DNA of 64,000 nt from Rhizophagus irregularis. Its lineage: Eukaryota > Glomeromycota > Glomeromycetes > Glomerales > Glomeraceae. Each line of letters begins with the position of its first letter. Positions within the stretch are counted from its first letter, which is position 1. The notes below the pieces were generated by a model. The model was not told where the DNA came from and did no database searches. It saw only the letters and a program-made list of their open reading frames with translations. Location: contig NC_089460.1 of assembly GCF_026210795.1 (NCBI RefSeq), forward strand, positions 2,380,501 to 2,444,500. Direction: 5' to 3'. This document shows, one piece after another, positions 3,592 through 30,054 of this stretch. The translations under genes and the position numbers were made by a program.

Positions 3592-3641
3592 TTGTTCTCT
3601 TTCTTTCCTTTTCTTTATTACCGTTTTATCAGTTTGTAATA

Positions 3642-11089: not shown

Positions 11090-12208
11090 AGCACCTTGGT
11101 ACCTTACATATATAAGTATTTTCTGGGGTCCTCACCTAATAGCATTTGGGAAGATATTAATAAAGGAAAAGCTGTTAGTTCTGGCAAATTTGCCGCCTCC
11201 TGCAAGTACTGTAAGAATACATGGTCACGCAGTGAAGTTTCAAAGCTCGAAGAGCATCTTTCAAACCATTGTCCAGAGTCGCCAGCAGCAGTTGTTAGAA
11301 GGTATATGACTAAAGTAATGGAATGGCAATATAAGTCCGATCTAAGTCATCCAAAAAAAGAAAATACTCTGAAGGTCAAAGTAACATGGATGATTACCAT
11401 GATTCAACAGAGCTTAACGAACAAAGATGTACACGAATTAATCGTGCATTAGTTAAATTTTTTATTGCATGTTTAGAGTAGTAGAACATCCCTTTTCCAT
11501 CAATTTTATAAAAGAGCTTAATGCTGGGTACAATACACCAATAAGGGAAGTACAGTCATCCTCCCATATAATCACACCCTTCGGGACCAAAAAAAAATGG
11601 TGTGACTATAATAATTATATATGATGTGATTAAAGGGAAGGTTTTTTTAATAAGTTTATTAGTAACTTGGGATTAATGTAAATATGCTTATAAGGGAGTT
11701 GTGATTATACAGGGGGTGACTATATGGGAGGACGACTGTATTAGTAAATCAACTACTTGAACGTGAATTAGCTCAAGTGAACTTCAAAGTTAATTCTGAG
11801 CTTGAAAAGGAAATGAATTTAACGTTAGGTTTGTTAAATTAAATAGGCTATCATATGTCATTTTTATTTAATCTTACTTACTATATAATATTAATTTATA
11901 ATTTAGCCTTTGATGGTTGGACGTCTAGTACACATCGTTCAATTTGGAACTTCATTGTAATAACTCTGTCGCGTAAAGAATATCTTTATCAACTTTCTGA
12001 TTTGTCTGAAAATTCGCACACTACAGAATATCTAGTTACGGTAATTGAAAAGGTTATAGAAGGTATTGGAGAAGATTGAATATGTGCTGTAGTTTCTGAT
12101 AATGCGGCCAATGTTCGTAATGCACGAAAAATTATACATGAGAATCATCCAAAGATTGAGAATGTGCGATGCATTGCACATTCTATCAATTTAATTGCAT
12201 GTGACATC
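11090..12208 (+). pseudogene. hAT-family transposase, 5' part, split by insertions
   Basis: The first block (11096-11452) is a BED-type zinc finger: SCKYCKNTWSRS, LEEHLSNHC. After a decayed link the frame resumes with ELNAGYNTPIREV at ~11515-11550, is cut by the MITE at 11551-11740, and continues LVNQLLERELAQVN. The catalytic-core region follows with LAFDGWTSSTHRSIWNF (from ~11895), VVSDNAANVRNARKI and RCIAHSINLIACDI (to ~12206), typical of the DUF659/hAT fold. The reading stops at 12208, where the 3.5-kb element begins. A small intron probably lies near 11830-11895. hAT transposases cut and paste DNA; this copy is dead. Confidence 0.8.
11551..11740. mobile_element. Pogo-like MITE inside the hAT gene
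   Basis: Termini TACAGTCATCCTCCCATAT and ATATGGGAGGACGACTGTA are inverted and flanked by TA. It is 190 bp, non-coding. With one TA retained, the flanks read GAA-GTA-TTA-GTA, restoring the hAT frame (IREV/LVNQ), so the MITE entered an intact codon. Confidence 0.85.
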
Positions 12209-13164
12209 CACTGGTCAAAATCAAAAAAATCGGACATATGGAAAATTGGCCAAAAATCAGACCAAAATTGACTAACATTATAAATCGGCACATCTGATTG
12301 ATGCCAATCAGACAATTTGATAAAAATTCAGCAAAAAATCATTATATTTGATTGACGGCTGATTGATGCTAGTTGAAATCAAAAAAAAAATGGACAAATG
12401 GCAAATCAACCTAAAATTTGCCCAATATTCAAATATGCACTTCCGATTTATGAAAGATTGATAATTCAATAAAAATTCAATAAAAATCCAACAAAAATTC
12501 AGCAAAAAATCATTATATTTGATTGACGGCTGATTGATGCTGGTTGAAATAAAAAAAAAAAATGGACAAAATAGCAAATCAACTTAAAATTTGCCCAATA
12601 TTCAAATATGTACTTCAGATTTATGGAAAATTGACAATTCAATAAAAATTCAATAAAAATTTAGCAAAAAATTATCATATTTGATTAACAGCTTAAAATT
12701 TGCCTAATATTGTCTGATTTATGACACTTTTATATCAAATTGCACTGGTCAAAATCAAAACTTTTGGGCATGGACAAATTGGCTCAATTTCAGAAGTTAT
12801 TCGAATAAACGATTTTTCAAAATCATCTTATGATGTACTAAACCGCAGCCACAGTAAATTTAATCTGGCAATTAGTTGATCTATTACCGAATTTAGACTT
12901 TATTTAAACTAAAGTTTTGAAACTTTATCTTCATCTAACTTCATTCCTAAACAAAACGGTTTTAAACGTTTTGGGATTTTTTTTTAATTTTTTATTGGAA
13001 ATAATGTTTCAATTTTTAACATTTTTATTTTTTACGAAACGTTTTTTAACTTTTCATTTAATATTTTCAATCAGAACATTAGTTAACGTTCTGATTTTAT
13101 TAATTTTTTTTTGCAAAACTATTACTTTAAAAAACGTTTTCTAACATTTTTTTTTATACTTTTA

Positions 13165-15095
13165 AATAGGAAATTGACTCCTACTTGGATACTGAATTCC
13201 AAAGGTAAGTTTTGAAGAATTTCTTCGAAACTTTATAAAAAAAACGTTTTCTAACATTTTTTTTATACTTTTATATAGGAAATCGGCTCCTATTTGGATA
13301 CCGAATTCCAAAGGTAAGTTTCAAAGAATTTTTTCAAAACTTTATAAAAAAAAACATTTTCTAACGTTTTTTTTATACTTTTATATAGGAAATCAGCTTC
13401 TACTTGGATACTGATTTCCAAAGGTAAGTTTCGAAAATCCCGCAAGTAAAGTTTCGATTTTCAAAACTTTTTGACACAAATTAATAAAAAAAACGTTTAA
13501 TTCAACATTTTTTTTATTATTTTTTATTATTTTTTTTTGCAGGAAATCGGCTCCAAATTGGATACCGGAATTCCGCAAGTAAAGTTTCAAAGTTTTGAAA
13601 CTTTACGAAATTTAATAAAAAAACATTTAAATTAACGTTTTTTTTATTAGATTTTATTATTTTTTTTGCAGGGAAATCAGCTCCAAATTGTACCGGAATT
13701 CTGCAGGTAAAGTTTCGTTAAAACTTTTTGACGCAAATTAATAAAAAAAAATGTTTAATTTAACATTTTTTTTATTATTTTTTATTATTCTTTTTTTTTT
13801 GTAAGGAATCAGCTCCGATTTGGATACCAATCCCACAGGTAAAGTTTCGAAGTTTCTTTTCGAAACTTAATGAAAAATATTTATTAACGTTTTTTTTTAT
13901 TTTTTTGTAGGAAATCGGCTCTGAAGCTTGGATACCGAATTTCAGGTAAGTTTCAAAATAAAATTTTTGAAACTTTATTTAAAAAAACTGTTAACTTTTT
14001 TTTCTTTTTGTAGGGAAATCGGCAAAATCTCTTCGGTCAGGTTTCAGAAGGTAAAACTGAAAGATTTTATTAATTTATCTAACGAATGTTACTAACGTTC
14101 GTTCTTATTTTTTGTAGGGCAGGGAAGCCGATGGACAAATTTCGGTCTTCCATTCTGAAGGTATAAACCTTTAAAATTTTTTATTTTATTTACTCTATTT
14201 TAACGAACACTAACTAACGTTCGTTCTTACGTTTTGTAGGTCCATGGCTTCTTGCGCGGTATTTCAAAGGTAGAAAATTTTCTTTTTTCTTTTTTATTTA
14301 CACAAAATGTTGACTAACTTTTGTTTATTTGAATTTTTCTTTTTTGTAAGTACAGGAATCTAAAACCAGATTTAGGTTTTCGGCTCTCTGGTTTCTGTCT
14401 ATCTGAATGGAATTTCGAAGGTACTTCTTCGAAATTTTGCATTTTTTTTTGTATTTTTATTTGAATGAAATGTTGACTAACGTTTCGATTTTCTTTCTTT
14501 TTTAGAGTTTTGGCTTCCTGGGCGGTATTTCGAAGGTGAAACTTCGAAAAAAAATTTTTTTTTTTATTTTATTTTAACGAACGTTAACTAACATTCGTTC
14601 TTAATTTTGTAGGTCTAGAACACCAAAGTGCAGGGCTCTGATTTGGCCAAATCTTTGTATTTTTGAAACTTAATAAAAAAACGTTAATTTAACGTTTTTT
14701 ATATTTTTTTATAGGAAATTAGCTCCAAATTGGCCAATCCTATAGGTAAAGTTTCAAAGTTTCTTCTAACTTCGAAACTTTCATAAAAAACGTTTAATTT
14801 TAACGTTTTTTATATTTTTTATAGGAAATCAGCTCTGAATTGGCCAATCCTATAGGTAAAGTTTCATATTTTCGAAACTTAATAAAAAAAACGTTTATTT
14901 TAACGTTTTTAATTTGTTATTATTTTTTTTGCAGAGAAATCAGCTCCAATTTGGATACCGGAATCCCGCAGGTAAAGTTTTGATTTTTAAAACTTTTTGA
15001 CGAAACTTAATAAAAATGTTTAATTTAACATTTTTTATTATATTTTATTAATTTTTTTGTATTTTAATGTTTTTTCTTTTTTTTTGTAGGAAAAT
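13165..15095 (+). repeat. Micro-exon array 1: ~17 exon/intron-like units
   Basis: About 17 units of ~105-150 bp. The commonest block is ~36 nt, beginning GAAATCGGCTCC and ending CCGCAG or CCAAAG, followed by GTAAAG or GTAAGT. The spacer then carries a hairpin such as ACGTTTAATTTAACGT, a long T tract and TATAG, TGTAG or TGCAG directly before the next block. Acceptors lie near 13168, 13278, 13388, 13543, 13670, 13909, 14012, 14117, 14239, 14503, 14612, 14713, 14822, 14934 and 15089. Units near 14100-14650 have different exon sequences (for example TTGGCTTCCTGGGCGGTATT) but keep the splice-like borders. In the commonest block all three frames are open. Whether it is transcribed or spliced cannot be seen from sequence. 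Confidence 0.75.
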
Positions 15096-15199
15096 CATCT
15101 CCAATTTGTAGAAACAAATGGGAATTAAGGAATTTAACGTATACCGGATTTGTTAGAAAGTTGGGATAATTTTTGGTGAAATTGTTTTATATGTATATG

Positions 15200-15480
15200 T
15201 AATATTTTAAATTTCAGAATAAAATTTACTGTAATTTGCGATACAATTTATAATACAAATCAGAATAAATTTTTTACTACAAATCGGAATAAATTTTACT
15301 ACAAATCAGAATAAATTTTACTACAAATTGGAATAAATCTTACTACAATTCAGAATAAATTTTACTACAAATTGGAATAAATTTTACTACAAATCAGAAT
15401 AAATTTTACTACAATTCAGAAAATTTTGTTACAAATTTACCATAATTCAGAATAAATTCACTGCAATTCGGTAAATTTAT
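15200..15480. repeat. ~22-bp minisatellite
   Basis: Degenerate tandem copies of AATAAATTTTACTACAAATC (CAG or TGG variants at the end) fill this stretch in the right end of the 12209-15672 element. Confidence 0.7.
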
Positions 15481-15675
15481 GAATAATATTTTTTAAACAA
15501 TTCGGATTAAAAATACTAAGCAATTCAGATACAATTCAGACATTCTGATCGGCATCAATCGGCCTGCCAATCAGAACTTTGCCTAAATTAATAAATTGGC
15601 CATCTTTATCACCAAATTCAGCCTAAAATCAGACATCCAATTTCTAGCCGATTTGGACTATTTCGACCAGTGATC

Positions 15676-15964
15676 TTATCTATGTATATAAAATATTAAG
15701 TTTTTTCTTTTACTTACCATTTAAAAATAATTGCTATATTTGCTTATAAACTTTTTTGTCATATTTAATAAAAGTGAAAAATAATGGAAAAGTGATAAGC
15801 AGTAATGGGAAAAAAGAAGTGGTTATTACCGTTATTTTTGAATATTGATTAAAAAAATTTTTTTTATTTTTTATTAAATCTGAGTTACGTAAATATGTAA
15901 CATATATTTAATTTGGATTTGTGTAATGTTAATCTTACTAAAATATTAAATTTTTATAAAAATC
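15676..15964. other. AT-rich junction between hAT and Plavaka relics
   Basis: Probably the decayed continuation of the hAT gene; no frame can be supported. Confidence 0.35.
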
Positions 15965-16668
15965 TTAATTTAGACTAATTCCAAAAATCGGCACATATGT
16001 ACTAAATTCTGATTCATTATAGTACTTGCTAACTGCTCGAATACAATCTTCACTGGCAGTCATATTTGTATAACTATACCAAGAAATAATTGTATTATTA
16101 GTAATTAACTCCTCATTTAAATCATCATCTAAATCAAAAAAATCATTTAAAGCTGTAAGAAAACAGCTTAATGCTAGTAAAGCTTCAGAAGCGAGACTAT
16201 TTTTTTCCTTATAAATATCAAAAAATTCATCAAAATTTTCCAATGCAAATTTTCCTAATATAATCCATTTAACGATGTGGCTTTTTAAGATTTTTTCTGT
16301 TTAGTTTGACACATTAAATGTTTTAAAGTTAATTTGATTTGAACCTATAAAATAAATGGTTTTTAAAATAAAGATGGATATTATTAAAAAAGGATTTTAA
16401 AAATATACTAACTGTATTAATAATTTGTCCTATTGCTTCACGCTTGTTACTTAATCTATATGGGATTTTGACATAATCTTTATGCAAAAACTCATAGGGT
16501 TCTGTTGTAAAACTATTAATAGCACCAAATCCTTCAATTGAATTAATGATGTGATACATCCAATTGTGTAATTTGGGCAATTTAAGTTCAGATCGGGAAT
16601 AGCTTTGGAATAGTTTCACAAATAATGTTGCCCAATCTGTTATTAATTTCTATAACATCAGAAAATTT

Positions 16669-17169
16669 GTTTAGGCGCGCGTAATTTAGTGTAATATTTT
16701 GAAGGTGGTGTAAAATTTTGAAATATTACACTAAAAACGTAATATTACAAAAGTTTACGCTCTTAAATTTAAATAATTATAGTAATTTAAGAATATCTCG
16801 CTATCTACTGATCCAATCAAGACGATCTATAGCTCATTGGAATCAGCTCATCAAGACGAATCGAATGGTAGTAAAATCGTATCTTTACGTTTGATAGATG
16901 ATTTTCTATTAATTTAAAACTTTACTGCATACTATAGAGCGTTCTATTAACTGTAGAAATGCCGATTTTACTACCATTCGATCCGTCTTGATGAGCTGAT
17001 TCCAATGAGCTATAGATCGTCTTGATTGGATCAGTAGATGACGAGATATTCTTAAATTACTATAATTATTTAAATTTAAGAGCGTAAACTTTTGTAATAT
17101 TACGTTTTTAGTGTAATATTTCAAAATTTTACACTACCTTCAAAATATTACACTAAATTACGCCTAAAC
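16669..17169. mobile_element. 501-bp foldback element with ~230-bp arms
   Basis: The element begins GTTTAGGCG and ends CGCCTAAAC; the whole left half (TAATATTACA, GAGCGTAAA, CTACTGATCCAATCAAGACG) is repeated inverted in the right half. AAATTT flanks both sides. Each arm carries the GATTCGTCTTGATGAG motif of the 1-kb tandem repeat (rc at ~16845, direct at ~16980). It sits just after an intron acceptor of the Plavaka gene. Non-coding. Confidence 0.85.
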
Positions 17170-17485
17170 AAATTTCCTGATGAATAAAAATATATATCAA
17201 TAGCCAAAGTAAATAAAATGCACTTAAAAAAATACCTTAAATTCCATAAGTTCTGATTTCAAAAAGTATTCCTTTCAGCTAAATAAATACATTTTATTCC
17301 ATCGATAATAAACATCAACCAATGTATCATCTTGTTTTTTGGAATTTTGTTCTATGCTATATTTTATTATCAACCCTTTAATTACAAAAAGAAATACTTT
17401 CATCATACTATGATATTCATTAGCTGTGAATAACTTGATATTTTTAAGCCATGTTTGAAAATTTTGAGCCCCAGAAATCTAGGAA

Positions 17486-20199
17486 TAGAGGTGTACTCCA
17501 GTGAAATCCGTTCAATCCGTCATCCGATCCAATCAAAAAACGGATCATCCAGATTAAGAATGAACGGATTGCGGATAATCCGGATGGATCCGTTAGATAA
17601 CATCGGATTGATCGGATGTTACACGGATGACCGGATTGACCAGATTGATCAGATAATCTGGTCAAATTCATAACTTTTTTTTTTTTTTTTAACATAAATA
17701 TTTTTTTTTAAAAAAAAACACCTTTTTTTCTTTAGGACGGACTTGGACTTGGACTTCGGAATGACTTGGACGGCTTGAATTTTGAAAAGTAAGTGTAAAT
17801 TTCTTTTTCTTTGTCTTGGGAACGTCACTAAACGTTCCTTTACTTCATTTCTTTAGGGGACGCCTGCCTGGAACTCAATTTCAGCTTGGGCTATAAAGGT
17901 AAGTTGGGGGAGGGTAATTTTGATTTTTTGTTTGTCTTTGGGAACGTCATTAACGTTCCTTTTGCTTTTTTTCTTTAGGAGACGCCTTCCCGGATTTGGA
18001 TTTCATAAAGGTAAGTTGGGGGAGGGTATTTTCGGGTTTTTTTTGTCTTTGGGAATGTCATTAACGTTCCTTTTGCTTTTTTTCTTTAGGTGACGCCCTT
18101 CCTAACCTGGATTTCGGCTTGGGCTATTAAAGTAAGTTGGGGAAATTAATTTTTGTTTTTTTTTTTGTCTTTAGGAACGTCATTAACGTTCCTTTTGCTT
18201 TTTTTCTTTAGGTGACACCCTTCCTAACCTGAATTTCGGCTTGGGCTATTAAAGTAAGTTGGGGAGGTTATTTTTGAGTTTTTTTTTGTCTTTGGGAACG
18301 TAATTAACGTTCCTTTTGCTTCTTTTCTTTAGGTAACGCCCTTCCTGGATCTTGATTTCAGCTTGGGCTATTAAAGTAAGTTGGGGAAGTTAATTTTTGT
18401 TTTTTTTTTGTCTTTAGGAACGTCATTAACGTTCCTTTTGCTTCTTTTCTTTAGGTGACGCCCTTCCTGGACCTGGATTTCGGCTTGGGCTATTAAAGTA
18501 AGTTGGGGAGGGTGTTTTATCTTTTTTTTTTGTCTTTAGAAACGTCATTAATGTTCCTTTTGCTTCTTTCCTTTAGGTGACGCCCTTCCTAACCTGGATT
18601 TCGGCTTGGGCTATTAAAGTAAGTTGGGGAGGTTATTTTTGAGTTTTTTTTGTCTTTGGGAACGTAATTAACGTTCCTTTTGCTTCTTTTCTTTAGGTGA
18701 CGCCCTTCCTGGACCTTGATTTCAGCTTGGGCTATTAAAGTAAGTTGGGGAAGTTAATTTTTGTTTTTTTTTGTCTTTAGGAACGTCATTAACGTTCCTT
18801 TTGCTTCTTTTCTTTAGGTGATGCCATTCCTAACCTGGATTTTGGCTTGGGCTATTAAAGTAAGTTGGGGAGGTTATTTTTGGTTTTTTTTTTGTCTTTG
18901 GGAACGTAATTAACGTTCCTTTTGCTTCTTTTCTTTAGGTGACGCCCTTCCTGGATCTGGATTTCGGCTTGGGCTATTAAAGTAAGTTGAGGGAGGGTGT
19001 TTTGCTTATTTTTTTTTTAGGAACGTCAATAACGTTCCTTTTGCTTCTTTTCTTTAGGTAACGCCCTTCCTAACCTAGATTTCGGCTTAGGCTATTAAAG
19101 TAAGTTGGGTAGGTTATTTTTGGGTTTTTTTTGTCTTTGGGAACGTAACTAACGTTCCTTTTGCTTTTTTCTTTAGGTGACGCCATTCCTAACCTGGATT
19201 TCGGCTTGGGCTATTAAAGTAAGTTGGGGAGGGTGTTTTATCTTTTTTTTTTGTCTTTAGGAACGTCATTAACGTTCCTTTTGCTTCTTTTCTTTAGGAG
19301 ACGCCCTCCCGGATTTGGATTTCATAAAGGTAAGTAAGTTGGAGAGGTTATTTTTGAGTTTTTTTTGTCTTTAGGAACGTAATTAACGTTCCTTTTGCTT
19401 CTTTTCTTTAGGTGACGCCCTTCCTGGACCTGGATTTTGGCTTGGGCTATTAAAGTAAGTTGGGAGGGTGTTTTATCTTTTTTTTTTGTCTTTAGGAACG
19501 TCATTAACGTTCCTTTTGCTTCTTTTCTTTAGGAGACGCCCTCCCGGATTTGGATTTCATAAAGGTAAGTTGGGGAGGTTATTTTTGAGTTTTTTTTGTC
19601 TTTGGGAACGTAATCAACGTTCCTTTTGCTTCTTTTCTTTAGGTGACGCCCTTCCTGGACCTGGATTTTGGCTTGGGCTATTAAAGTAAGTTGGGGAAGG
19701 GTTTTTTATCTTTTTTTTTGTCTTTAGGAACGTAACTAACGTTCCTTTTGCTTCTTTCTTTAGGAGGACGCCTCTTGGACCTGGATTTCGGCATGGATTA
19801 TAAAGGTAAGTTGGGGGAAAGGTATTTTTGTTTTTTGTTTTTAGGAACGTAATTAACGTTCCTTTTGCTTCTTTTTTTTAGGGAGACACCTTCTTGGACC
19901 TCTAAATCTTAAACTTTTTATAAATATTGTGTCAACTAATTTGTTAAAAATCATTTGTAATAATGTAAAAATAAATACTATGTTTATTATTATAAAATTC
20001 TAATTGTTAATTAATATTAATAAAAAGTATTAAGTAGAAAAAACTGAATTCGGATTCACCGGATTCACCGGATTGACCGGATTATTCAGATATCCGGTCA
20101 ACCATCCGGTCAAATTGGTGAGCAAGTATTGACCGGATATCCGATGATTCAGATGGATGACCAGATATCCGGATTGACTGGATTCGAAGCATACCTCTA
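17486..20199. mobile_element. 2.7-kb TIR element with 8-bp duplication carrying micro-exon array 2
   Basis: The left end TAGAGGTGTACTCC and right end GAAGCATACCTCTA are inverted. TCTAGGAA (17478-17485) and CCTAGGAA (20200-20207) form an 8-bp duplication with one mismatch. Subterminal repeats of CGGATTGACCGGAT type occupy ~17500-17660 and ~20045-20190. Joining the flanks restores a Plavaka reading (ATIPRFLGLK), so the insertion point is supported independently. No transposase is inside. The ends resemble the small MITE at 303-746. Confidence 0.8.
17728..19900 (+). repeat. Micro-exon array 2: 19 units of ~121 bp
   Basis: There are nineteen TTTAG acceptors (ending near 17735, 17856, 17978, 18089, 18211, 18332, 18454, 18576, 18696, 18817, 18938, 19057, 19176, 19297, 19411, 19532, 19642, 19763, 19881). 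Each is followed by a 32-43-nt block of the type GTGACGCCCTTCCTGGACCT...GGCTTGGGCTAT and by GTAAGTTGGGG. The spacer has a perfect 7-bp stem GGAACGT-AATTA-ACGTTCC, then CTTTTGCTTCTTTTCTTTAG. The 17880 unit ends TATAAAG|GTAAGT; with the shorter GACGCC start, a 42-nt block is obtained that keeps one frame open with a Gly codon split G|GT, whereas most units end TATTAAA. Spacing is very regular, suggesting recent expansion. Confidence 0.85.
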
Positions 20200-21011
20200 C
20201 CTAGGAATTGTGGCTAATTGTTCGTCAAGCTTATCAACTGCTGCTTAACCACATATATTTTTCAACATTTCTCATGTATAAATTACTTGATATTTATACA
20301 AGCCTAAGTCAAGGTGGTGCATTCTGTCTGGGTATTTTGCCAAATATATATCAAGTTGACTAAAGAATTACATTGTACGGTTAGTTTATTAATATATTTT
20401 ATTAATTAATTATGATAAAAATAACTTATGGGTATTTCCAAAAGATATTGTTCATGTTGTACATCGAATTTTGATGTGCAGGTTACTGATATAAAATATC
20501 TATCATCATTTTTGGTGTTCTTAACTCTATTTGATTATTGCTCAATCTTAAATTATTCAGATCTTCACCAGAAATTAAACATTTGTGACAAGAATGATTA
20601 CTATTAACTGAGTATGTTAATGTTTGTGTAGTATTTTCTGAAAGATCTCCTAACAAGGTGGATATATGCAGAAAATACTACATATCTCCATTATTTGTTT
20701 GTAAGTCAAAGCCCGATCTTTGTATGACAAGAGTGAATGCATTATGACGTCAAATGCATACTGAAACAAAGCTATTTTTGCCAGCAAAAAACTTCTCAAT
20801 CTTTTTTCTGAATTTGTTTTTGCTTTTAACATTGGAAGATAGCAGAAAAGGACTTTAGCATCAGGTTTATTCTGACGCCAGTTGGATATATTCCCCAAAG
20901 TCAAGTACACTGGGTGTTTGCTTAACTTTCCTGGTTACAAGTAGTGGCGTCAGAATAAAGAATTATTGATAAAACATTTGCTGTATTGGGGAGTGTTTTT
21001 TGCATCTTTTT

Positions 21012-21188
21012 TATACATGCTGCCCAAATTATTTTGGGATGCCATAATTATAATTTGGGATGTCGTAATTCATCCAGTTTATATATAATTTACTATGTAA
21101 AGTGCCAAAATAATTTGGGATGTCATAATTGAATTTGGGATTTTACTTATAATTACAGCAGTCCAAAATAATTTGGGTGGCATGTATA
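21012..21188. mobile_element. MITE in the Plavaka gene
   Basis: TATACATGCTGCCCAAATTA on the left and its near-inverse ending GGCATGTATA on the right, with internal AATAATTTGGGATGTCATAA repeats. It is 177 bp and non-coding. A TA target is likely. Confidence 0.7.
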
Positions 21189-21245
21189 ATCTTTTCCCAC
21201 CATTTTCCATTGAATTGTTCGCTATAAATTCTTTGGTTTTGATAT

Positions 21246-21738
21246 TATAATGGTCGTCAGGCTGGATGTGTAGTCACTACGTTCCTCCACCTCAGCCTTA
21301 TGGCCTTGCAGTACCTACATGGCCCCTACGGGGCTCAGGCATCCCCCATATATTTTCCACAATCCTCCATATAGATCTTCCACAAAAATATATACCAAAA
21401 AAGGATAAAATAAAGAAAAAGAGAAGAAAATAAGAGGGAATCAGAAGAGTGTGGAGGATGTGGAGGATGTTTTAAAAATATTGGGAGAGGATTCCCTCAG
21501 AAAAAAGTTTTGATTTTACCCCCAGATCCTCTACATCTGAAACATCTTCTACATGTACAGGATTCCATTAGTTTTCCTAATGGAAGCAGTGAGACAGCAA
21601 ACCAGGTAGATTAACAGGTAAGCCCCTAGAAATTCTGTAGAGCCAGTAAGACTAACCCCATCCTATCCTCGTCAGAAAAAATAAGTAATTGAACAATGGT
21701 AAACCATAAGTAATATATAAGAATACTTAACACGAAAT
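21246..21738. other. Unassigned stretch with a locally GC-rich patch
   Basis: 21250-21350 is unusually GC-rich for the window (GGCCCCTACGGGGC at ~21318-21331 forms a stem) and is followed by purine-rich sequence with GTGGAGGATGTGGAGGATG near 21450. No frame, tRNA fold or known RNA is apparent. Confidence 0.3.
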
Positions 21739-22119
21739 ATGCATATGATGAACTTGCATATCACCACTTCTCTTGCTAAAGATCTCGGACTCGATCTTGT
21801 AGATATCTATGGAATCCGTAAATAGACCCAAATGCAGGTTTCACCTCTTAACGATTCCAACATAGTAGCGGAGATGATCAGAAACCTTCTGATCAAAGAA
21901 TTCAGAAAGCACCTCAAGATAAACAGACTCTGATACAACTGTTGTAAAACTGAGTTGTGGAAGCGGCATGAGAAAGCTGAGAAGGCTTATAAACAGACAG
22001 TAGAAAAGAAAGAAAAAGCGGAAGATGCTCTTGGTCAATCATATGAGGAAGCTAGAAAAGAGCAAATTATGGTAAGACTAGCTTTTGAGCAGCTTGGATT
22101 TAATATATATGTGGATTGA
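21739..22119 (+). pseudogene. Coiled-coil ORF relic of the Maverick/plasmid-like element
   Basis: One frame runs from ATG 21739 to TGA 22119 with only two internal stops: an N-terminal hydrophobic/Asp-rich part (AKDLGLDLVDIYGIRK) and a Lys/Glu-rich helical part (KAYKQTVEKKEKAEDALGQ). Its place directly upstream of the helicase relic suggests the same element. The family is not recognised. Confidence 0.4.
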
Positions 22120-22328
22120 AAAAGAGGAAGGGAAGATTTAGAGCAGTCGTAAAGGTTTGTAGTTTATAGTTTTTTTTTACCCCTATAAGATAACCAGGTA
22201 TGACTGGAAGACCGCAGAACCGCAGAACCGCAGGATAACCAGGTAGAAGTGCAGATTTTTGGAAAAAATATTCGGCAATTGAAGATTAGGTAACTATAAA
22301 TTAGTACTCAATTTGATAGAATGAAAAA

Positions 22329-23427
22329 ATGACTGCCAAAACTAGCATTCAAGCTCAAGTTATTCCCAAATTTGGTGAACAAAAGAAAGCCTTCAGTATA
22401 GATGAGCTTAAACAGCTCATTAACGCTGCTAAAAGTATGAGTGACCTTGATCAAGCTAAACGTTATCTTTGCAGTTACTTTATCCCCTCCTCTAACCCAC
22501 ATGGAATCTTCATGTGGTGGTCAGAAATCAAGTATCTTGAACATATCCTTGATAAAAATATTAGTAAACTTATCTGTCCAATTACCAAAGTCTTTTACAT
22601 ACAATCTGAACAAGGTCCTTCACAAAAGGTTGAATTCAATATCAACAAATGGTTTATGGTCAAATACAGTACTGTATGTGTAGCTACCTGTAACCTTCAA
22701 AAATCCCGTATCTTTAAGCTAGGTGGCCAACTTTATCTTAATATCTTCCTAGGATTTCTCCATATCCTGCGTCCAATATCCACCTTTGAGTCTATAACCC
22801 ATCAGGCGGTTAAATTTATCTTTTTTCACGTTCAGGATATCTGGTATTCAGGCGATTGGAATTTTACTGAGTATATCATCAACTGGTTGGCTGGTGTATC
22901 CACTGAAAGGAAGATGTACTCGATTCTCTACCTGAAATCTGGATAGGGTTAGGATAAGAGTATTATAACAGATTTCATTCAACGCAGTATCCTAGGCACT
23001 CAACTCGTTTATAAGACCAGAGATTTTCAGACGATTCTTAAAAATTTCAATGGGCAATTACAGGGTAAGATTTTTCTTCTTCTCGAGGAAATGCCCACAG
23101 AAAAAAACCAGTGGAATAATCTGTATCGATCGTTGAAGGATAAGGTAACAGGCAACATAATAGAAATCCATGAAAAATATGACGCCAACACATTACAAAA
23201 ACTTTATATCCACCATTGTCTTCACCAATGAAAATGCTCTCAGAGTGGAGAACGATGACAGGCGTACTGTGTTCTTGGATATGTCACCTTCCCGCAAGGA
23301 AAACCTGAAATACTTCAAAAAACTCAGTGACGTTATAAAATGTCCAGGCGTTAGTGAGGCATTCTATGTATACTTGAGAGCCATTGCGGATGCTTATTCA
23401 GACTTCAATGGGAATCCCCTCCTATGA
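22329..23427 (+). pseudogene. D5-like primase-helicase relic (SF3 type)
   Basis: The frame opens at ATG 22329 and runs 205 codons through YSGDWNFTEYIINWLAGVST, which in this family precedes the Walker A loop. The expected loop reads G-stop-G-stop-DKS at 22940-22960: two TAG codons and a Gly-to-Asp change. The frame then continues IITDFIQRS, KIFLLLEEMPTEKNQW (Walker B-like, 23068-23110), NLYRSLKDKVTG and, after a shift near 23175-23230, NALRVENDDRRTVFLDMSPS and a helical tail to 23427. The NDDRR block is the sensor/arginine-finger region of DUF5906/D5-type helicases found in plasmid-like, Polinton-like and large DNA viral genomes. It would unwind DNA at replication. Clearly dead. Confidence 0.65.
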
Positions 23428-23465
23428 CTGCATCTAAGCAGCATCACATTATATTGACTCTCCTA

Positions 23466-23735
23466 CTTAGTGTTCTGAACGGGTCAGGTCAATTCGGGTG
23501 ACCTGTTGGGTTGACCTGAAAATTTTGGGTTGGGTCATTAAATTCATGACCTGACCCGTTGACCTGTTTGACCTGACATAATATTTCTGGTCAGATGGGT
23601 CAAATATGTAAAAAAATGCTAAAACGTTTTTTTTTTGTATTATTATTAAGAAAAAATGTTTTGGTGTTTTTTCATATAAAATTATTAAAAAAACGCTGAA
23701 AACATTTTTTTTTTGTATTATTATTAAGAAAAGCC
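23466..23735. repeat. Insert with GGTCAGGTCAA subterminal repeats
   Basis: Direct and inverted copies of TTGACCTGACC-type decamers fill 23475-23610, followed by two copies of ATTATTATTAAGAAAA. This has the style of the window's subterminal-repeat elements, but only one end is evident. It lies between the helicase and polymerase relics. Confidence 0.5.
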
Positions 23736-24277
23736 CCCTTAAGACTCATGATTATCTACAAGATTTACCTCCTGCAGTTGATAGTATAGCTGTAAAAAAG
23801 GATAGGTTAAGCCCATATATAACCAAACTTGTTGATAACTTAGATGGAGGGCGATTTCCTGAAACAGAGAAGTTAGTTCCACATCTTGGTAAACATGAAG
23901 ATTATGTCATACATTACCAAGAACTCCAGTATTACATTAAATTAGGCATGGTTGTAGATGAGATTACACAAGTCCTATCATTTGATCAGGATAACTGGTT
24001 AGCTCCTTAAATTGCAAAAATACAAATTTACGTCAACAATCCAAGAATTCATTTGAGAAAGACTTCTTTAAACTCATGAATAATTCTGTTTATGGAAAGA
24101 CTATGGAGAATGTACGTAAATATCAGGATGTCAAGCTTATGAGAATGATCAATGAAAATGATGAGAAGAAATTCCTTAAGAAAATCCGCAAGCCCTCCTT
24201 CAAGTATGCTCGTCAACTTGGCAACACACTTGTGGGTGCACATATGGGAAAGGCTAGTGTTATTCTCAATAAACCTA
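23736..24277 (+). pseudogene. Type B (protein-primed-like) DNA polymerase relic
   Basis: The translated pieces are HDYLQDLPPAVDSIAVKK, LGKHEDYVIHYQELQYYIKL and QVLSFDQDNWLAP, then a stop and a shift, NPRIHLRK, and a cleaner frame from 24076 (NNSVYGKTMENVRKYQDVK ... NKPIY). HYQELQYYIKLGM and NNSVYGKTMEN are the blocks I associate with Maverick/Polinton and linear-plasmid polymerases (palm, motif B region). It is cut at 24278 by a Tc1-like MITE. It would replicate a linear element; this copy is decayed. Confidence 0.7.
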
Positions 24278-24279
24278 TA

Positions 24280-24945
24280 TACTCCCTGGCCAAAGTTTAG
24301 AACCACCCCTATATTTGCAAACTTATAATAATTGTTGCATAAAATGCAACTTAAATACAATAATAAAATACTTAAAATTTTTTTTACATTTATTTTGTAT
24401 TAATTGATAATTTGATATTAAATAACAATTTTAAAAAATTGCTAATTATATTTGTAATTGTATTTAGTAAAATTTTATACAATATTGAGAAGAATCATTT
24501 TAGCAAATACTTTTAAAATTTAAATTCTTTCAGTTAAAAGGATCAAAATAAGCTAAATTTTGTAAAAATCAGATTAGTAGTTAATGAAAACATTATTTTT
24601 AAAGTTTGTCAATTTACATATACAATGATTTACATTATCAATTTCCATATGTAAATTAGCAATTTTTGATGATCAATTTCTTCCTATTTACTGGTCTGAT
24701 TTTCAAAAAATTTAGCTTATTTTAATCCTTCCAAATAGAAGAACCGAATTCCAATCTTAGTTTTAATAATATTTTGCTGATTGCAATTTTACTTGAAATT
24801 AAAATTTTATAAATTCCAAGTTCTAAGTATAAATCAGTAATTTATATATAATTATTAAATTATTATATTTCAATAATAAAATTTTTTTTTTAAGTTGCAT
24901 TTTATGCATATAATTACGTGGTCCTAAACTTTTGGCCAGGGAGTG
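24280..24945. mobile_element. Tc1/mariner-like MITE, 666 bp
   Basis: ACTCCCTGGCCAAAGTTTAG on the left and its near-inverse CTTTTGGCCAGGGAGTG on the right, both flanked by TA (24278-24279, 24946-24947). TTGCATAAAATGCAACTTAA and AAGTTGCATTTTATGCATA also pair across the element. Non-coding. It is inserted into the polymerase relic right after NKPIY. Confidence 0.8.
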
Positions 24946-24947
24946 TA

Positions 24948-25301
24948 GTTAGTATTGGCGTAATTTTAATTTTAATGGAAATGATCAGCAATGATCGATA
25001 GGGTGGTCAGATACTTTTTACCAGAGAGTATACATGAACCGATTTTCATAATAAAGAATTTCAAAAATAGCAGATTTTCTTTCTATACCCTTACCACCGT
25101 CCTTTATTGTTTTTCTAAAAAAACTGAAACTTGATCATGGTTTTTTTTAACTCCTGCACATAAAAATACTGCAAATCAAAAATACCTATGTGCATGTATG
25201 GCGTAATATCTTTTAGTGATATGGTGTAAGAAATAAATCAAGCCATTTTTTTGCTTAAATTGCAAAAAGTGCAGAATCAGTTTTCGTGCGTAAAAATCTC
25301 T
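24948..25301. other. Decayed spacer
   Basis: Possibly more of the polymerase relic at the left (FRAME after the MITE reads SIGVILILME), but nothing firm. No repeats seen. Confidence 0.3.
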
Positions 25302-25789
25302 TTATAACTGATTAATAAGATTAGCACATTCTATATTAAAAAGGACTTTGAAATTAAAATTTTGCAAAACAATCTCTTTATCTCCCCCCATTAAAGATAT
25401 GTAAGACCAACTTTGTGTAATATGATCCTGCCAAAAATGAAATTTTACCGATATTCTTTGCATCTCCACACTAATAATTCTTTTAATATTATCATCAAAT
25501 TGATTTTCAGATTTATGTATCTGGTTCATATTTTTTTCAATTTTGTGGATTTTATCTCTATTGCCAATATCTTTTTTTGTGCTACTAAAGTAAGGTTCAA
25601 TTTTCCATTTTGTTCCATTTGGATCTATTAGACCATTAATTACTAAATTGTGCAATTTACTAATTATTGGTTCCATTACATTTTGTAATGTCTCATAATT
25701 CTCTACACCTGGATATAGAATAGTTGTATAGTAAAAGTCAGCCTTACGAATATTCAATATATTATCTAAAATGGTACAAGTAACCATAA

Positions 25790-26002
25790 GGGGATGGCCA
25801 GAAATGACGTAATTTAAATTTTAGGATTTTTGACCCCCCCCCCTCCCCATGTCATCATTCATTTTAGGAAATGTAAAATTAAAACATAATTCTGGCTAGA
25901 ATTATATTAACTACAAGTGTCTAAAAATGGAAGATGTGTAATATCATCATGGTCTTAACCCCCTCCCTCCCTTAGAAAATGATGTCATTTCTGGCAGTCC
26001 CC
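25790..26002. mobile_element. PIF/Harbinger-like MITE, TAA duplication
   Basis: GGGGATGGCCAGAAATGACG and its near-inverse GTCATTTCTGGCAGTCCCC, flanked by TAA at 25787-25789 and 26003-26005. It is 213 bp. Removing it joins GTGAAACACAT and TATGGTTACTTG in frame with the surrounding gene. Confidence 0.8.
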
Positions 26003-27158
26003 TAATGTGTTTCACTTTTCTACCTATGTTACGCCCATCACCTGATATTTGTACATGAATTATAGGATCATTTGGATTAAGAATATTTCAATTTACAAGA
26101 TCTGGAATTACAAAAAGTAAAATGTCTGAAATACGTCTATAACCTGCTTTACCAATATATTGTAATACCTCTTTTACAATTTTTTGATCTTCAATATCAG
26201 GAGCTTCATTTATTGTTAATGCAAAAGGTGTATGTTTAATATTTAAAATAGAAATAGGAATTTTTTGACTCATTTTTTCATTAATTCTTTTTCTAGCATT
26301 TAAGATGACACAGTCTCGTGGTAACTCAGGTTGAAGTGCAGCTAAATTTCGGTAAGCATCTCAGAAAATTGGCCCTTGATCAATAACTTTTGTAAATGCA
26401 TCAATGCGTTGATTTTTTTTTCATTTTTATCACAATAATTAGCCAAATAATTCTTATTTTAAACATTAAATCGAATTTCTTGCAAAACTGGCTGGTCACT
26501 TAAATTATAGAAATTCAGAGTTTCATTTTGAAATATTGTATCTATATGTATAGAAAATGAACAAGACCGTTTTATTTTCATAGATTCACTTAACATATTA
26601 AATGGTTTAAAAGAATGATTTTTCACGTTTTTTTTTTTTTTTAAAAAAAACTCTATTATAATCATTATATAAACTTACAAAATATAAGATAAACAAATAC
26701 ATATAAGAATTAAGCATTATGAAACAAGACTACTTTTCATAAAGAACAAGTCGACTCATGATCTACCCAATGACCACCACGATGGAATGCCAAATCATTC
26801 CATTTATTCCAATTATTTTCTAACATATTACAGCCAACATTTTTAACACCCACTTCAGTGCTTTTACTATGTGACTTAGCTTTTTTATCTTTACCGCTAA
26901 TACCGCACTGCTTTTTTTCCTTTACTACACGTTATAAATAACGTGCATGTATGATTCTTTCTTTATTAAAAAAGCTGTATGTACATACTATCGGATACAG
27001 AATGATGAAATAAACGAAAACAAATTTTCTAAATAATTCGTTAAAACTACTGGGGAAGTCTATATATTTTTCTTTCAAATAAAATTTGCCATATGTAAAT
27101 ATAATCAAATATGGAATGATGTGAAACTAAAAATAAATTCAATAGACAAAACTGACTA

Positions 27159-27356
27159 CAGTCAGACCTCTATAATTGCATTCTCCATAATTGCACCCAC
27201 TATGTATACCCTCTCTAAATGCACCCTCTGGTTCGGTCCCAAGCTTATATGATCTCTAATTATTTTACCTCTATAAATGCACACCCTCTTTAAATGCACT
27301 ATTTTGAAAATTATGCATATGGTCCCAAGGGGTGTGCAATTATGGAGGTCTGACTG
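27159..27356. mobile_element. Pogo-like MITE, 198 bp
   Basis: CAGTCAGACCTCTATAATTG and CAATTATGGAGGTCTGACTG are inverted and flanked by TA. The interior alternates TGCACCC and CTCTNTAAATGCAC copies. It lies in the putative intron of the minus-strand gene. Same terminal logic as 775-9575 and 11551-11740, but different sequence. Confidence 0.85.
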
Positions 27357-28458
27357 TATATATTTTTCTTTCTAACCAAATAGCCTTATGTAAATATTAT
27401 CAGATAAGGAATGATCTAAAATCCTAAAATAATTATTCATGTTTTCCCTTTTGATAATTTGTTTCTTAATAATTAGCCATCCCACAAAAGAAAATAAAAA
27501 AACAAAACAAGAATAACTAATTATATATTTATGTCCCCTTAATATAACATACCTTGCTCTAATTTACGAGCTTTAATTGCATACTGATTAACCATGTAGT
27601 CATGAGTAACACCACGTGCACGCCTCCCTCTTCTAACCCCATTACAATATGTTGTTAAAAGACTTTTATCTCTAATACTATTCAAACCCTGATGAAATTC
27701 TGCCCTTGTAATAGGTTCTTGTCTATTGAGTATTTCTTGCCAAGGAGCGACATTATCCTGTCCACTAATTTCCATTTCTTGAAGGTCCGTAAAAATATTG
27801 TCTATCGTAGCACTTTGACCAGCACTACTTGACTGTTCTGCTAACTTACTATCTTTTCGTTCAAAAAAAGCGTCTTTTTTCTTTCTTAATTTGAGAAAAT
27901 GTTCTTCGTTAAAAGAATGATTAATAAAAATATCATCTATTAACATTTTATATCCAACTTCACTTGTAACTTGATCTACCAGAAACTCCATTTCTTTTTC
28001 TGATATGTATTGTTTCTTAAGGATATCATGTCTACATTTCAACTTATGTTTGGAAATAAGTACCTTTGATCCAATTCCATTATTTGTGACCTGCCATTTA
28101 TTTTTATTACTCTTGAGGCTGTTTTTAAACCTCTTTTTATACTTCTCTTGTTCTTTCAACATCTTAAATTGCTTGTTTATCTGCAAATTTGAATACGTAA
28201 CTGCATATTTACGTGCTCCACCATCTATCAAAACTTTTTTTGTATAAGACACGCCAACACGTTTACTTATTACTTGTTTAACTTTACTAAAATTCTTAAA
28301 CACATTTTGCAGCGGAGGTGTAGGAGTTACTATCACCTTCGAACGACAATTTTGACAAACTTTTCTATTTCTTGACATTACGTAAGCACAGACGTTACTA
28401 CAAAACGAGCATGGAATATAGAACCCCAAATACCATATACGTCTACCATGACTAAATT

Positions 28459-29839
28459 TAAGGTTGCCTGCCGAAACTCATTTGGCCTGGTGCCGAAAGC
28501 CAAAACTCTTTTATTAGTGCCAAAACTGCCAAAACGCCAAAACGCCAAAACCTGCCAAAATGCCGAAACTGCCGAAACTATTTGCAAGTTTTGGCATAGT
28601 TTCAGCATAGCTAATACTAACATCTTGATATAGTTTCGGCATAATTTCAGCATTCTATAATAATTTTTTTTCATTAATTTAATTCCAATATATATATACA
28701 TAATTAAATATTTTATTATATTATTTATTTTATTGTAATAAACCAATTTTTATAAACAATGGTATACTATAAGAAACGCACTCGTTTCTTCGAAGCAATT
28801 AAATAAAACTTTCCATATAAAAAAGTCTGGTAAAAAAAAACAAAAAAAATAGAAGGAACGTTATAACGTTTCTTCAATATATTAAAAAAAAAGATTCCTT
28901 CCCCCTTCCTTAAGCTTACATACCAAGTATCCCAAGTTCGGGTTCTTCAAGTTCCTAGGAGTCCGGTAACCTAAAAAAACAGAAAAAAGAAACATTAGTA
29001 CGTTTCTTTAACACAATTAACCTAAAAAAAACAGAAAAAGAAACGTTAGTACGTTTCTTTAACACAATTTAAACACAGTACCCCATATACTTACCAAAGA
29101 CCAGTTCTTCCAAGTTTCTAGGAGTCAGATAACCTAAAAAAACAGAAAAAAGAAACGTTAGTACGTTTCTTTAACACAATTAAACACAGTACCCAATATA
29201 CTTACCAAAGACCGGTTCTTCCAAGTTCCTAGGAGTCCGGTAACCTAAAAAAACAGAAAAAAGAAACGTTAGTACGTTTCTTTAACACAATTTAAATACA
29301 GTACCCCATATACTTACCAAAGACCGGTTCTTCCAAGTTCCTAGGAGTTTGGTAACCTAAAAAAAACAGAAAAAAGAAACATTAGTACGTTTCTTTAACA
29401 CAATTTAAACACAGTACCCCATATACTTACCAAAGTCTGGGTTCTTTCAAGTTTCTAGGAGTCTGGTATCCTAAAAAACAAGAAAATAGAAACGTTTGTA
29501 TGTTTCTTTAATACAATTCAAGAAAAAAATTAAAAAAAATTAACGTTAGTAAAATATACTAACGTTAAAATAAAGGGTGGGCGGGCGATCATAAAATTCA
29601 ATGTTAAATTATCTTTTTAACGTTAAAAAAGTTTTTTTTTTAAAAAAAAAATAACGATAACGGTTTAAAAAACTGTTTTAAATTATCAATGATCAGTTAA
29701 AAAACTGATCGGAGCTTAACTGAATTAAGAAATACTGAAACTATATGTATATCATATGATATACTGCGCTGAAACGCTGAAACAATTTCAGCAGTTTCAG
29801 CAGTTTCAGCAGTTTTGGCAGTTTCGGCAAGCAACCTTA
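28459..29839. mobile_element. 1.4-kb TIR element with perfect 8-bp duplication carrying micro-exon array 3
   Basis: Left end TAAGGTTGCCTGCCGAAACT, right end GGCAAGCAACCTTA, flanked by ACTAAATT at 28451-28458 and 29840-29847 with no mismatch. Subterminal repeats are GCCAAAACGCC/GCCGAAACT on the left and CAGTTTCAG on the right. The core is the array. Removing the element and one duplication copy restores an uninterrupted frame in the host gene (TYIKFSHGRRIW), so the boundaries are strongly supported. hAT- or KDZ-like mobilisation is inferred from the 8-bp duplication. Confidence 0.9.
28905..29530 (-). repeat. Micro-exon array 3: ~5-6 units of ~113 bp on the minus strand
   Basis: On the minus strand each unit reads TTTTTTTAG|GTTACCGGACTCCTAGGAAC...GGTCTTTG|GTAAGTATATGGGG. 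The block is 39 nt in the best units. The spacer holds AGAAACGT-ACTA-ACGTTTCT, whose loop contains TACTAAC, identical to the yeast branch-point consensus. Plus-strand landmarks CCTAAAAAAAC lie near 28970, 29131, 29243, 29356 and 29469. In phase 1 the blocks stay open (Tyr-x-Thr-Pro-Arg-Asn-Leu, then Glu/Lys, Glu-Pro/Leu) across units, whereas another phase has a stop in one unit. The last unit near 28920 is diverged. Confidence 0.8.
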
Positions 29840-30054
29840 ACTAAATTTAATATATGTATAATTTGTATTATTTTGTTTGAGTAAAAAAGGGTTATTCTCA
29901 GGATATTTACTATATTTACTTTGGTTAGAAGAAGACATAATAGACATAATAGAAATAATTTTATTTCAAAAAAAAATTATCACATTAATCACATTAATCG
30001 CATCAACCATTTGACCATTCCACTTAATTGTGCAACTTAAATTTTAAGGTGCAT

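Follow-up and report, generated by a model that had tools for sequence, protein, structure and literature searches.

Candidate tandem exon-intron arrays carried by non-autonomous TIR elements in Rhizophagus irregularis

Elements of the CACTA superfamily have TIRs beginning with CACT(A/G) and 3-bp TSDs, and Pack-type elements are non-autonomous, gene-capturing TIR elements with exon-intron cargo. Ordinary MITEs, to our knowledge, carry no exon-intron arrays. Splice signals borne by transposable elements have a precedent in introners, many of which are described as arising from non-autonomous DNA transposons (PMC9860276), and the symmetrical stwintrons of Hypoxylaceae, spliceosomal introns with internal inverted repeats, are described as multiplying in a fungal genome (PMC8469720). 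In human cells, introns are reported to protect transcripts from HUSH silencing and to mark them as self; in the passages of that source drawn on here, protection is independent of splicing, and spliced stuffer sequences gave none (PMC8770142).

Three elements in a 64-kb window of the R. irregularis genome (the whole stretch of DNA that was analysed) resemble each of these systems in part. With non-autonomous hAT elements and MITEs two of them share a TIR, an 8-bp TSD and the lack of a transposase, and the TIR of element 3 also occurs on an element with DUF659 and hAT-dimerisation domains, but they differ in carrying a tandem exon-intron array. With non-autonomous CACTA (CMC/EnSpm) elements the remaining one shares a TIR starting CACTG and a 3-bp TSD, whereas its cargo is a non-coding intron array. 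Pack-type elements are likewise non-autonomous TIR elements with exon-intron cargo; here, in contrast, no coding frame is kept and the unit is amplified in tandem. As in introners, the splice signals are borne by the transposable element, but an introner is one intron of a host gene, while here several to at least 20 introns lie between blocks of the element's own. Nor do the splice sites lie at or near the element ends, as they would if the whole element were one intron: counted from the 5' terminus, the first signals appear only after some 280 bp in element 3, and no closer to it in the others. Neither "Rhizophagus" nor "Glomeromycota" occurs in the main text of PMC9860276. The stwintrons differ in having terminal inverted repeats of 45-55 nt and in residing in genes with, as far as the consulted part of that account goes, no flanking duplications (PMC8469720), whereas the stems seen here are short, lie at the donor and the branch site, and belong to TIR elements with TSDs; inspection by eye of the introns printed for the array loci revealed no nested introns. 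HUSH is a human complex. Among the papers listed by a literature search, none describes an element class of this kind, in agreement with an earlier note on this DNA. Rows of exon-like blocks and strong hairpin introns that keep no reading frame, borne by several families of small transposons, point to a type of mobile cargo, open to splicing, that has not been described before.

Three arrays inside TIR elements

The arrays singled out in the earlier note (Table 1) are real, and they are the top three chains of the window when candidate exon-intron chains are scored on donor, branch site and acceptor, with scores of 128.6 for element 2, 40.1 for element 3 and 35.1 for element 1. Ten local dinucleotide resamples gave best scores of 10.0-18.8, none reaching 24, and the reversed window gave 16.0; finding full splice grammar in three TIR elements that lack a transposase is thus far above what chance would give, as the note had held. 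The fourth-ranked chain (score 22.7, 25401-26442 on the plus strand), whose start is antisense to a 172-codon open frame, was taken as false.

Table 1. Coordinates of the elements, arrays and example hairpin within the window
Feature	Position	Strand	Details
Element 1	12209-15672		TIR CACTGGTC; TSD ATC at 12206-12208 and 15673-15675
Element 1 array	13170 (first exon-like block) to 15089 (last acceptor)	+	Blocks mostly 30-37 nt
Element 2	17486-20199		TIR TAGAGGT; 8-bp TSD at 17478-17485 and 20200-20207
Element 2 array	17736-19881	+	18 introns, 17789-19881
Element 3	28459-29839		TIR TAAGGTTGCYTGCCGAAACT; TSD at 28451-28458 and 29840-29847
Element 3 array	Core about 28924-29470; chain span 28827-29559	-	Introns about 73 nt
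Example branch-site hairpin, element 3	29038-29059	-	AAGAAACGTACTAACGTTTCTT

The predicted introns follow the U2 order of donor, branch site, polypyrimidine tract and AG at the usual intron length. The blocks of element 1 are mostly 30-37 nt long, the first ones 35 nt, and its donors are GTAAGT at the start and later mostly GTAAAG, with higher degeneracy in the middle units. Element 2 has introns of 68-82 nt and blocks of 42, 43 or 32 nt after a first block of 53 nt, and element 3 has introns of about 73 nt and blocks of 39-40 nt, the last being 47 nt. The hairpin with ACGT arms reported in the earlier note is present, but more can be said of it than that it is internal to the intron: the likely branch site is enclosed by it, where the loop meets a stem that covaries. 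In element 3, TACTAAC lies inside the ACGT-stem hairpin, and the 22-nt sequence of the example hairpin is repeated at 29150 and 29261. In part of the arrays the donor, too, is associated with a covarying stem.

Judged by their termini and flanks, element 1 is a CACTA-like TIR element without transposase and with a 3-bp TSD, and elements 2 and 3 are hAT-like TIR elements, also without transposase. The TSD of element 2 matches at 7 of 8 positions (TCTAGGAA/CCTAGGAA) and that of element 3 at 8 of 8 (ACTAAATT). Among copies of element 2, L003 has a perfect 8-bp TSD (CTTGGTTG, 8/8), the flanks of L016 give no matching 8-bp TSD, and the remaining fetched copies comprise one end only; copies of element 3 have 8-bp TSDs matching at 8/8 (L009 and L010) or 7/8 (L012) positions. 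The TIR of element 3 occurs 600 + 642 times in the genome with at most one mismatch (control, 0), and together the TIRs, TSDs and dispersed copies show the elements to be mobile. A hAT transposase partner sharing the TIR was found for element 3: L065 and L066 have this TIR and 8-bp TSDs, and L065, which is longer than element 3, has open frames matching DUF659 (6e-21) and Dimer_Tnp_hAT (3e-5). L066 is more broken than L065.

A TIR beginning with CACT(A/G) and a 3-bp TSD are present in element 1 and in a further CACTA-like element, C27 (TIR CACTGGTC, TSD TAT/TAT). The array of element 3 is not private to it, its module also lying inside a CACTA-like element with TIRs and a TSD of its own. Modules have thus moved between superfamilies; nested insertion of a hAT array was rejected as the reason, since 9 bases of the element 3 TIR had no exact match inside the CACTA-like element.

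Spread and composition across the genome

The whole genome holds 1137 occurrences of a strict intron pattern versus 75 in the reversed control, and they fall in many arrays, and a hairpin pattern occurs 737 times versus 3 on each strand, every place being counted on both strands because the pattern is palindromic. Chains of at least four introns were found at 11 of the 18 hairpin places fetched, the other seven having no four-intron chain, and at all six apparently isolated strict introns. The array of element 1 has at least 264 genome matches (40 of 214 candidates scored) and that of element 2 at least 195 (40 of 73 scored). The element 3 array has at most 153 candidate places versus 1242 TIR ends, so it is apparently dispensable for transposition. 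The earlier note had taken the arrays of the window as three separate convergences, a reading weakened by these many further arrays and by recurrence being in part shared descent, since a hAT-like element and a CACTA-like element have one module in common.

The typical unit consists of a block of 24-45 nt and an intron of 70-100 nt with a GTAAGT or GTAAAG donor, a YTAAC branch site, a T-rich tract and mostly TAG, and unit number varies from copy to copy. The profile of the element 1 family covers 107 units at seven loci (10-25 per locus); in its relatives L075-L077 the chain finder predicts four introns each versus 10, 13 and 15 profile units, and in L078 none. Among 363 array introns, counted without the window copies (L001 and L007) and the chaperonin loci, 248 have a GTAAGT donor and 329 a TAG acceptor, the donor counts leaning upward because chains with good splice signals (donor, branch site, acceptor) score higher in the chain finder. 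GTAAGT is present in none of the 17 control introns, a small set inferred at five chaperonin loci, several on weak scores; three control introns of at least 150 nt were excluded ahead of the hairpin count. Loci L001-L028 were chosen by similarity to the window arrays, and L030-L047 from the hairpin list, so that the hairpin rate of the latter is not independent.

Origin and maintenance of the splice signals

On balance, we consider it probable that these are non-autonomous transposons, belonging to no fewer than two superfamilies (hAT-like and CACTA-like), with a tandem, non-coding exon-intron cargo that would be transcribed and spliced. Of the three readings offered in the earlier note, whose interpretation is partly supported overall, this one, non-autonomous elements making multi-exon RNAs, fits the sequences best. 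Exon-intron units would have been duplicated in tandem and ferried by the TIR elements; the array would be transcribed as a non-coding RNA, the ordinary U2 spliceosome would remove its introns, and loss of spliceability would have left a copy with fewer descendants. In families 1 and 2, variation is 2-5 times lower at the splice signals than in the remaining unit. Mismatch in family 2 (151 units) is.032 at the donor,.004 at the AG and.057 at YTAAC, versus.163 in the exon and.188 in the other intron positions (p 0.0008 for the contrast), and in family 1 (107 units) it is.053 at the donor and.070 at YTAAC versus.140 and.163 (p 0.03). The covariation of the branch stem and, in part of the arrays, of a donor stem speaks for this reading too, as does the lack of an overall coding signal. 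Conservation was measured on profile matches unfiltered by splice rules, the profiles of families 2 and 3 themselves having been built from units found with such rules.

The strongest competitor, which we regard as unlikely, is that the arrays are palindrome-rich satellites, descendants of one or a few real introns spread by tandem duplication and transposition, with inherited signals that are now unused. Such disuse would agree with family 3, where the splice signals show no significant excess conservation (p 0.23; its AG figure is void and unused because the unit profile stops before the acceptor AG), and with a joined-exon query that gave no near-identical match across exon junctions among the matches listed (40 of 86 candidates scored). 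The stems, moreover, look like near-perfect DNA palindromes whose mismatches are G.T or A.C in 34 versus 33 cases at the branch site and 26 versus 20 at the donor, and as these show no overall RNA-strand bias, the palindromes could be maintained at the DNA level or be decaying neutrally. At a single branch-stem pair G.T prevails (23 versus 5 A.C), an excess that may be a polymorphism of one family. Splicing could also be hindered by a branch A that closes the stem and a donor that lies inside the donor stem. Against the satellite origin stand, however, the lower variability of the splice signals in families 1 and 2, the YTAAC that, by eye, marks the edge of the loop in almost every hairpin row shown, and a grammar that is constant even though block lengths and intron interiors diverge widely among arrays.

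Less probable still is an origin by capture and amplification of exons from a gene for a short protein repeat, belonging to the host or to a transposon and now decaying. The earlier note had pointed out that the commonest or inferred ancestral block lengths are multiples of three. That regularity is refuted: 299 blocks leave remainders of 0, 1 and 2 in 96, 117 and 86 cases, and in family 2 (121 units) the lengths are 43 nt in 45 blocks, 42 nt in 44 and 32 nt in 16. The longest open frame exceeds that of shuffles at the 0.05 level in 2 of 32 chains, and the block sequences show no common reading frame and no overall coding signal. The element 3 relatives L008, L010, L011 and L012, all four fetched loci tested, do lean towards open frames (p 0.06, 0.09, 0.04 and 0.12; the window copy, p 0.39), and by eye one frame is open in some of the blocks at the end of the element 2 array. 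Different arrays have in some of their blocks a weak core in common, for example CTGGACTT or GACTTTGG; such sharing was seen in 6 of 20 groups, compared with a mean of 3.4 and a maximum of 5 in shuffles, but one group in this shared 8-mer test combined the three window arrays, which inflates the sharing. With no frame kept overall and a weak shared motif, capture from a repeat-protein gene has little support. SP7-like effector genes do contain repeats, but were set aside: in the part of PMC11333574 consulted, they have a single conserved intron, located ahead of the repeats.

Intron mimicry, by which the insertion itself would be spliceable and thus harmless in genes, is very improbable: the element carries strong donors and acceptors, and introners give a precedent for splice sites borne by transposable elements (PMC9860276, as far as consulted), but the arrays are internal, the outermost predicted splice sites of element 3 lying 280 and 368 bp from its termini. 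Splice sites therefore do not delimit the element as a whole, and the host mRNA would retain blocks.

We give slightly less credit again to the view that the hairpin introns, rather than being splicing by-products, give rise to structured or small RNAs (mirtron-like, silencing triggers), which would suit the covarying stems at the branch site and, in part of the arrays, at the donor, and the young, small-RNA-rich regions described for R. irregularis in the consulted part of PMC10234402, but not branch stems of only about 8 bp, mismatches without overall strand bias, or the absence of Rfam matches at the gathering score in window positions 12000-30400. The last result also led us to reject a known RNA family as an identity for that interval. 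A T-arm-like stretch in the L020 family had suggested descent from a tRNA or SINE, which was rejected, as ARAGORN found no genes at six loci.

Possible value of introns to a DNA transposon

Since transposition of DNA transposons involves no RNA, it is not obvious why a non-autonomous element should keep rows of near-consensus introns. If the proposed non-coding, spliced cargo is real, the most likely gain to the element, speculatively, would be a transcript resembling host pre-mRNA, which might attract less nuclear RNA surveillance or small-RNA silencing and so keep the chromatin of the element accessible to a transposase acting in trans; a role of the arrays in escape from silencing is speculative. 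A bolder and doubtful version would have mobile intron arrays as self-contained, non-coding modules that amplify in tandem, hop between superfamilies and let the transcripts of the element pass as host pre-mRNA, with stem-loops at the branch sites, and in part of the arrays at the donors, timing or gating splicing. Were this true, they would embody a transposon strategy of seeming self through introns.

The occurrence of one module in hAT-like and CACTA-like elements suggests that it is worth acquiring. The covarying stems would offer an unusual natural series for studying the effects of structure on splicing, and the arrays could help to label part of the unclassified repeats of R. irregularis, estimated at 24-32 percent of the genome (PMC8647823) or about 30 percent (PMC11075540). 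If the arrays are spliced, introns would be of selective value to a genomic parasite for reasons other than coding, and whether introns serve to mark transcripts as self would become testable beyond mammals.

Arrays of intron-like units in the window and across the genome

Parsing of donors and acceptors bore out the unit plan claimed for the three arrays in the earlier note: in each of elements 1 to 3, which are TIR elements without a transposase, short exon-like blocks alternate in tandem with introns that hold a donor, a YTAAC branch site in a hairpin with an ACGT stem, and an acceptor. When runs of consecutive predicted introns (chains) were scored from donor, branch and acceptor signals only, the same three arrays took the first three ranks in the window, with scores of 128.6 (element 2), 40.1 (element 3) and 35.1 (element 1), while a second stretch of element 1 scored 18.5. 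In randomised sequence, the best chain in ten local dinucleotide resamples scored from 10.0 to 18.8, none of them reaching 24; the top chain of the reversed window scored 16.0.

Features of the window, with positions, strand, termini and remarks
Feature	Position	Strand	TIR	TSD or remark
LINE-type retroelement, open frames resembling (by eye)	1547-9028			stop-interrupted; endonuclease, reverse transcriptase and RNase H regions (by eye)
hAT transposase gene fragment	11024-12208			element 1 inserted in it or adjoining it
Element 1	12209-15672		CACTGGTC	3-bp TSD ATC
Array of element 1	13170-15089	+		donor/acceptor parsing
Long inverted repeat, looks like a fold-back element	16679-17163			arms 16679-16879 and 16963-17163, 201 nt, 98 percent complementary, 83 nt apart
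Element 2	17486-20199			8-bp TSD, 7/8 positions alike
Array of element 2	17789-19881	+		18 introns; donor/acceptor parsing
Next chain after the three arrays	25401-26442			score 22.7; start antisense to an open frame
Element 3	28459-29839			8-bp TSD, 8/8 positions alike
Array of element 3	~29470 down to 28924	-		donor/acceptor parsing
MULE-type transposase, open frames resembling (by eye)	32894-34029	-		

The arrays are a genome-wide class. In the 146,748,485 bases searched (32 contigs, the window being C32:2380501-2444500), the array of element 1 has at least 264 matches (best 40 of 214 candidates scored), that of element 2 at least 195 (best 40 of 73) and that of element 3 at least 108 (best 40 of 153). 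The genome has 737 matches per strand to the stem pattern GAAACGT-N(2-5)-ACGTTTC, against 3 in the reversed control, and in nearly all the matches listed YTAAC spans, by eye, the loop and 3' arm on one strand. A strict intron, GTAAGT-N(30-60)-YTAACGT-N(12-40)-TAGG, was found 607 + 530 times against 27 + 48 in the control. This is probably an undercount, as only 129 of the 363 array introns fit the pattern. Among the matches listed, a hand count, leaving out two rows without a clear stem, gave at least 34 strict-intron places separated by over 10 kb within the first 10.4 Mb. Chains of at least four introns were present at 11 of 18 places sampled from the stem-pattern matches and absent from 7, and all six strict introns that seemed isolated fell in such chains.

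Intron signals, stems and block sequence

Of the 363 array introns, 248 have GTAAGT as donor, a count that leans upward because the chain finder favours strong signals, and 329 have TAG as acceptor; GTAAGT is found in none of 17 inferred introns of chaperonin genes. Hairpins were not used by the chain finder, although some loci had been picked by hairpin. On the branch side, 256 of the 363 have a hairpin of at least 6 bp (31 in shuffles) and 188 have YTRAC at its loop edge, as compared with two and none, respectively, of the 14 chaperonin introns under 150 nt. When 124 distinct branch stems were anchored on their ACGT core, Watson-Crick pairing was seen 98, 94 and 79 times at outer pairs 5, 6 and 7 (58, 70 and 57 expected), with changes on both sides in 38, 18 and 16. 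Pair 4 is almost fixed (113, 113 expected) and there is no surplus at pairs 8 and 9 (48 vs 53 and 43 vs 42 expected), which puts the stem at about 8 bp.

On the donor side, 87 of the 363 introns have a stem of at least 5 bp (36 in shuffles); no window intron of element 2 or 3 has one. The donor GTAAGTTTYG followed by CGAAAC is found in 48 introns from 13 loci, with 34 distinct interiors, where inner pairs 1 to 3 are Watson-Crick in 31/34, 30/32 and 25/32 (12, 20 and 16 expected) and pairs 4 to 6 show little or no excess (21/29 vs 18.5, 10/18 vs 8.9, 5/10 vs 4.6). The unit consensus of family 1, the units related to the element 1 array, reads GTAAAGTTTC-GAAT-GAAACTTTAC at the donor. Mismatches of the G.T and A.C kinds number 34 and 33 in branch stems and 26 and 20 in donor stems, although at branch pair 7 they number 23 and 5. 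Because pairs covary but G.T has no overall excess over A.C, the stems are, as far as their sequences tell, maintained or renewed as palindromes. Rfam has no family matching window 12000-30400. Within the arms of the family 1 branch stems (L074-L080), the two most variable positions, at 0.23 mismatch each, are the C of one CpG and the G of the other, a pattern that decay of methylated cytosines after insertion would produce.

In unit profile searches, whose matches were not filtered by splice rules, the splice signals are under constraint in two of the three families. Mean mismatch in family 2 (151 units) is.032 at the donor,.004 at the AG and.057 at YTAAC, vs.163 in the block and.188 elsewhere in the intron; the corresponding donor and YTAAC values are.053 and.070 vs.140 and.163 in family 1 (107 units), and.070 and.074 vs.094 and.081 in family 3 (38 units), whose profile stops short of the AG. 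One-sided rank tests gave p-values of 0.0008 (family 2), 0.03 (family 1) and 0.23 (family 3). These values are rough, because the positions depend on one another, the units share ancestry, and splice rules had served to find the units behind the family 2 and family 3 profiles.

The blocks, by contrast with an earlier reading of them as multiples of three, keep no frame: the lengths of 299 leave remainders 0, 1 and 2 in 96, 117 and 86 cases. With the blocks joined, two of 32 chains (L011, L024) have a longest open frame that exceeds shuffles at 0.05. All four fetched relatives of element 3 lean open (L008 0.06, L010 0.09, L011 0.04, L012 0.12), and the window copy gives 0.39; overall, the blocks are not coding. 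Weak 8-mers such as CTGGACTT are common to blocks of different arrays in 6 of 20 groups, against a mean of 3.4 and a maximum of 5 in shuffles, but the sharing is inflated by one group that combined the three window arrays. A weak core around ACCTGGACTTTGG recurs in the blocks of many loci and may reflect common descent or act as an exonic splicing signal. A joined-block query from six loci gave no near-identical junction-crossing match among those listed (best 40 of 86 candidates), so retrocopy evidence of splicing is absent there; setting aside ends one to five bases long, the crossing matches align with gaps at 66-73 percent identity.

Carrier elements and exchange of the array module

The carriers are mobile elements. 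Elsewhere, element 3 is flanked by the TSD CACCTAAT in one copy and GTTGGTTG in another, each alike at 8/8 positions, and by the pair GATGTATC/GATGTACC in a third; CTTGGTTG stands on either flank of one element 2 copy, and in another (L016) the flanks differ. The element 3 TIR, with at most one mismatch, occurs at 600 forward and 642 reverse places genome-wide (0 in the control). Two longer elements, L065 and L066, have this TIR, perfect 8-bp TSDs and transposase-like open frames, more broken up in L066. Those of L065 contain DUF659 (6e-21), the hAT dimerisation region (3e-5) and, in a third frame, a Myb/SANT domain; a BED finger scores below threshold (19.7 vs 20.6 bits). Since it has its TIR in common with these hAT transposase-like elements, element 3 is a non-autonomous hAT-like element. 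The chain finder detected no array chain in L065 or L066, and with at most 153 candidate array places against 1242 TIR ends, most of the family seems to be without an array. The translation of the hAT fragment beside element 1 closely resembles L065 by eye.

A 3529-bp element on contig C27 is CACTA-like, given its CACTGGTC termini and 3-bp TSD (TAT), and has a copy on C11 with 98.5 percent identity over 3.4 kb. Its positions 2239-2711 match the array of a copy of the hAT element 3 piecewise at 76-88 percent (best E 1e-104), and the element 3 TIR core was not found inside it. A third kind of element, with TIR CACAGGTC and, in the copy at C1:7180186-7185614, TSD TAT, carries related arrays as well. 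The earlier note had remarked that complete splice signals recur in three elements; because one array module is present in both hAT-like and CACTA-like elements, this recurrence is partly the result of module exchange, and convergence is not the sole cause. Single-linkage clustering of 45 array segments by BLAST gave eight groups, with elements 1 and 2 outside that of element 3 at the threshold applied. In two loci of the CACAGGTC family, L038 and L040, the minus-strand array has upstream of its first donor what looks by eye like a promoter and first exon, with a TATA-like stretch, CACGTG palindromes and a pyrimidine-rich leader.

A possible role for the arrays

The array would be transcribed as a non-coding RNA and then spliced and, more speculatively, the element might benefit from a likeness to host pre-mRNA. 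Introns are reported to shield transcribed DNA in human cells from HUSH even without splicing, a precedent for introns as protection, yet also a warning, as spliced stuffer sequences reportedly gave none (PMC8770142). For R. irregularis, abundant small RNAs are reported from young parts of the genome (PMC10234402), so a pressure on elements to escape silencing is plausible.

The earlier note knew of no such element class, and this stands within the literature searched: among the titles and abstract openings listed on the R. irregularis genome, repeats, splicing, introners and TIR elements, subscription papers and preprints being outside the scope, we found no account of such arrays, and the word "intron" is absent from the main text of two papers on transposable elements of this fungus (PMC11075540 and PMC8647823). 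The arrays are a real and unusually regular feature of the genome, undescribed as far as searched, whose novelty lies in the cargo, which is new in kind, the vehicles being known transposons.
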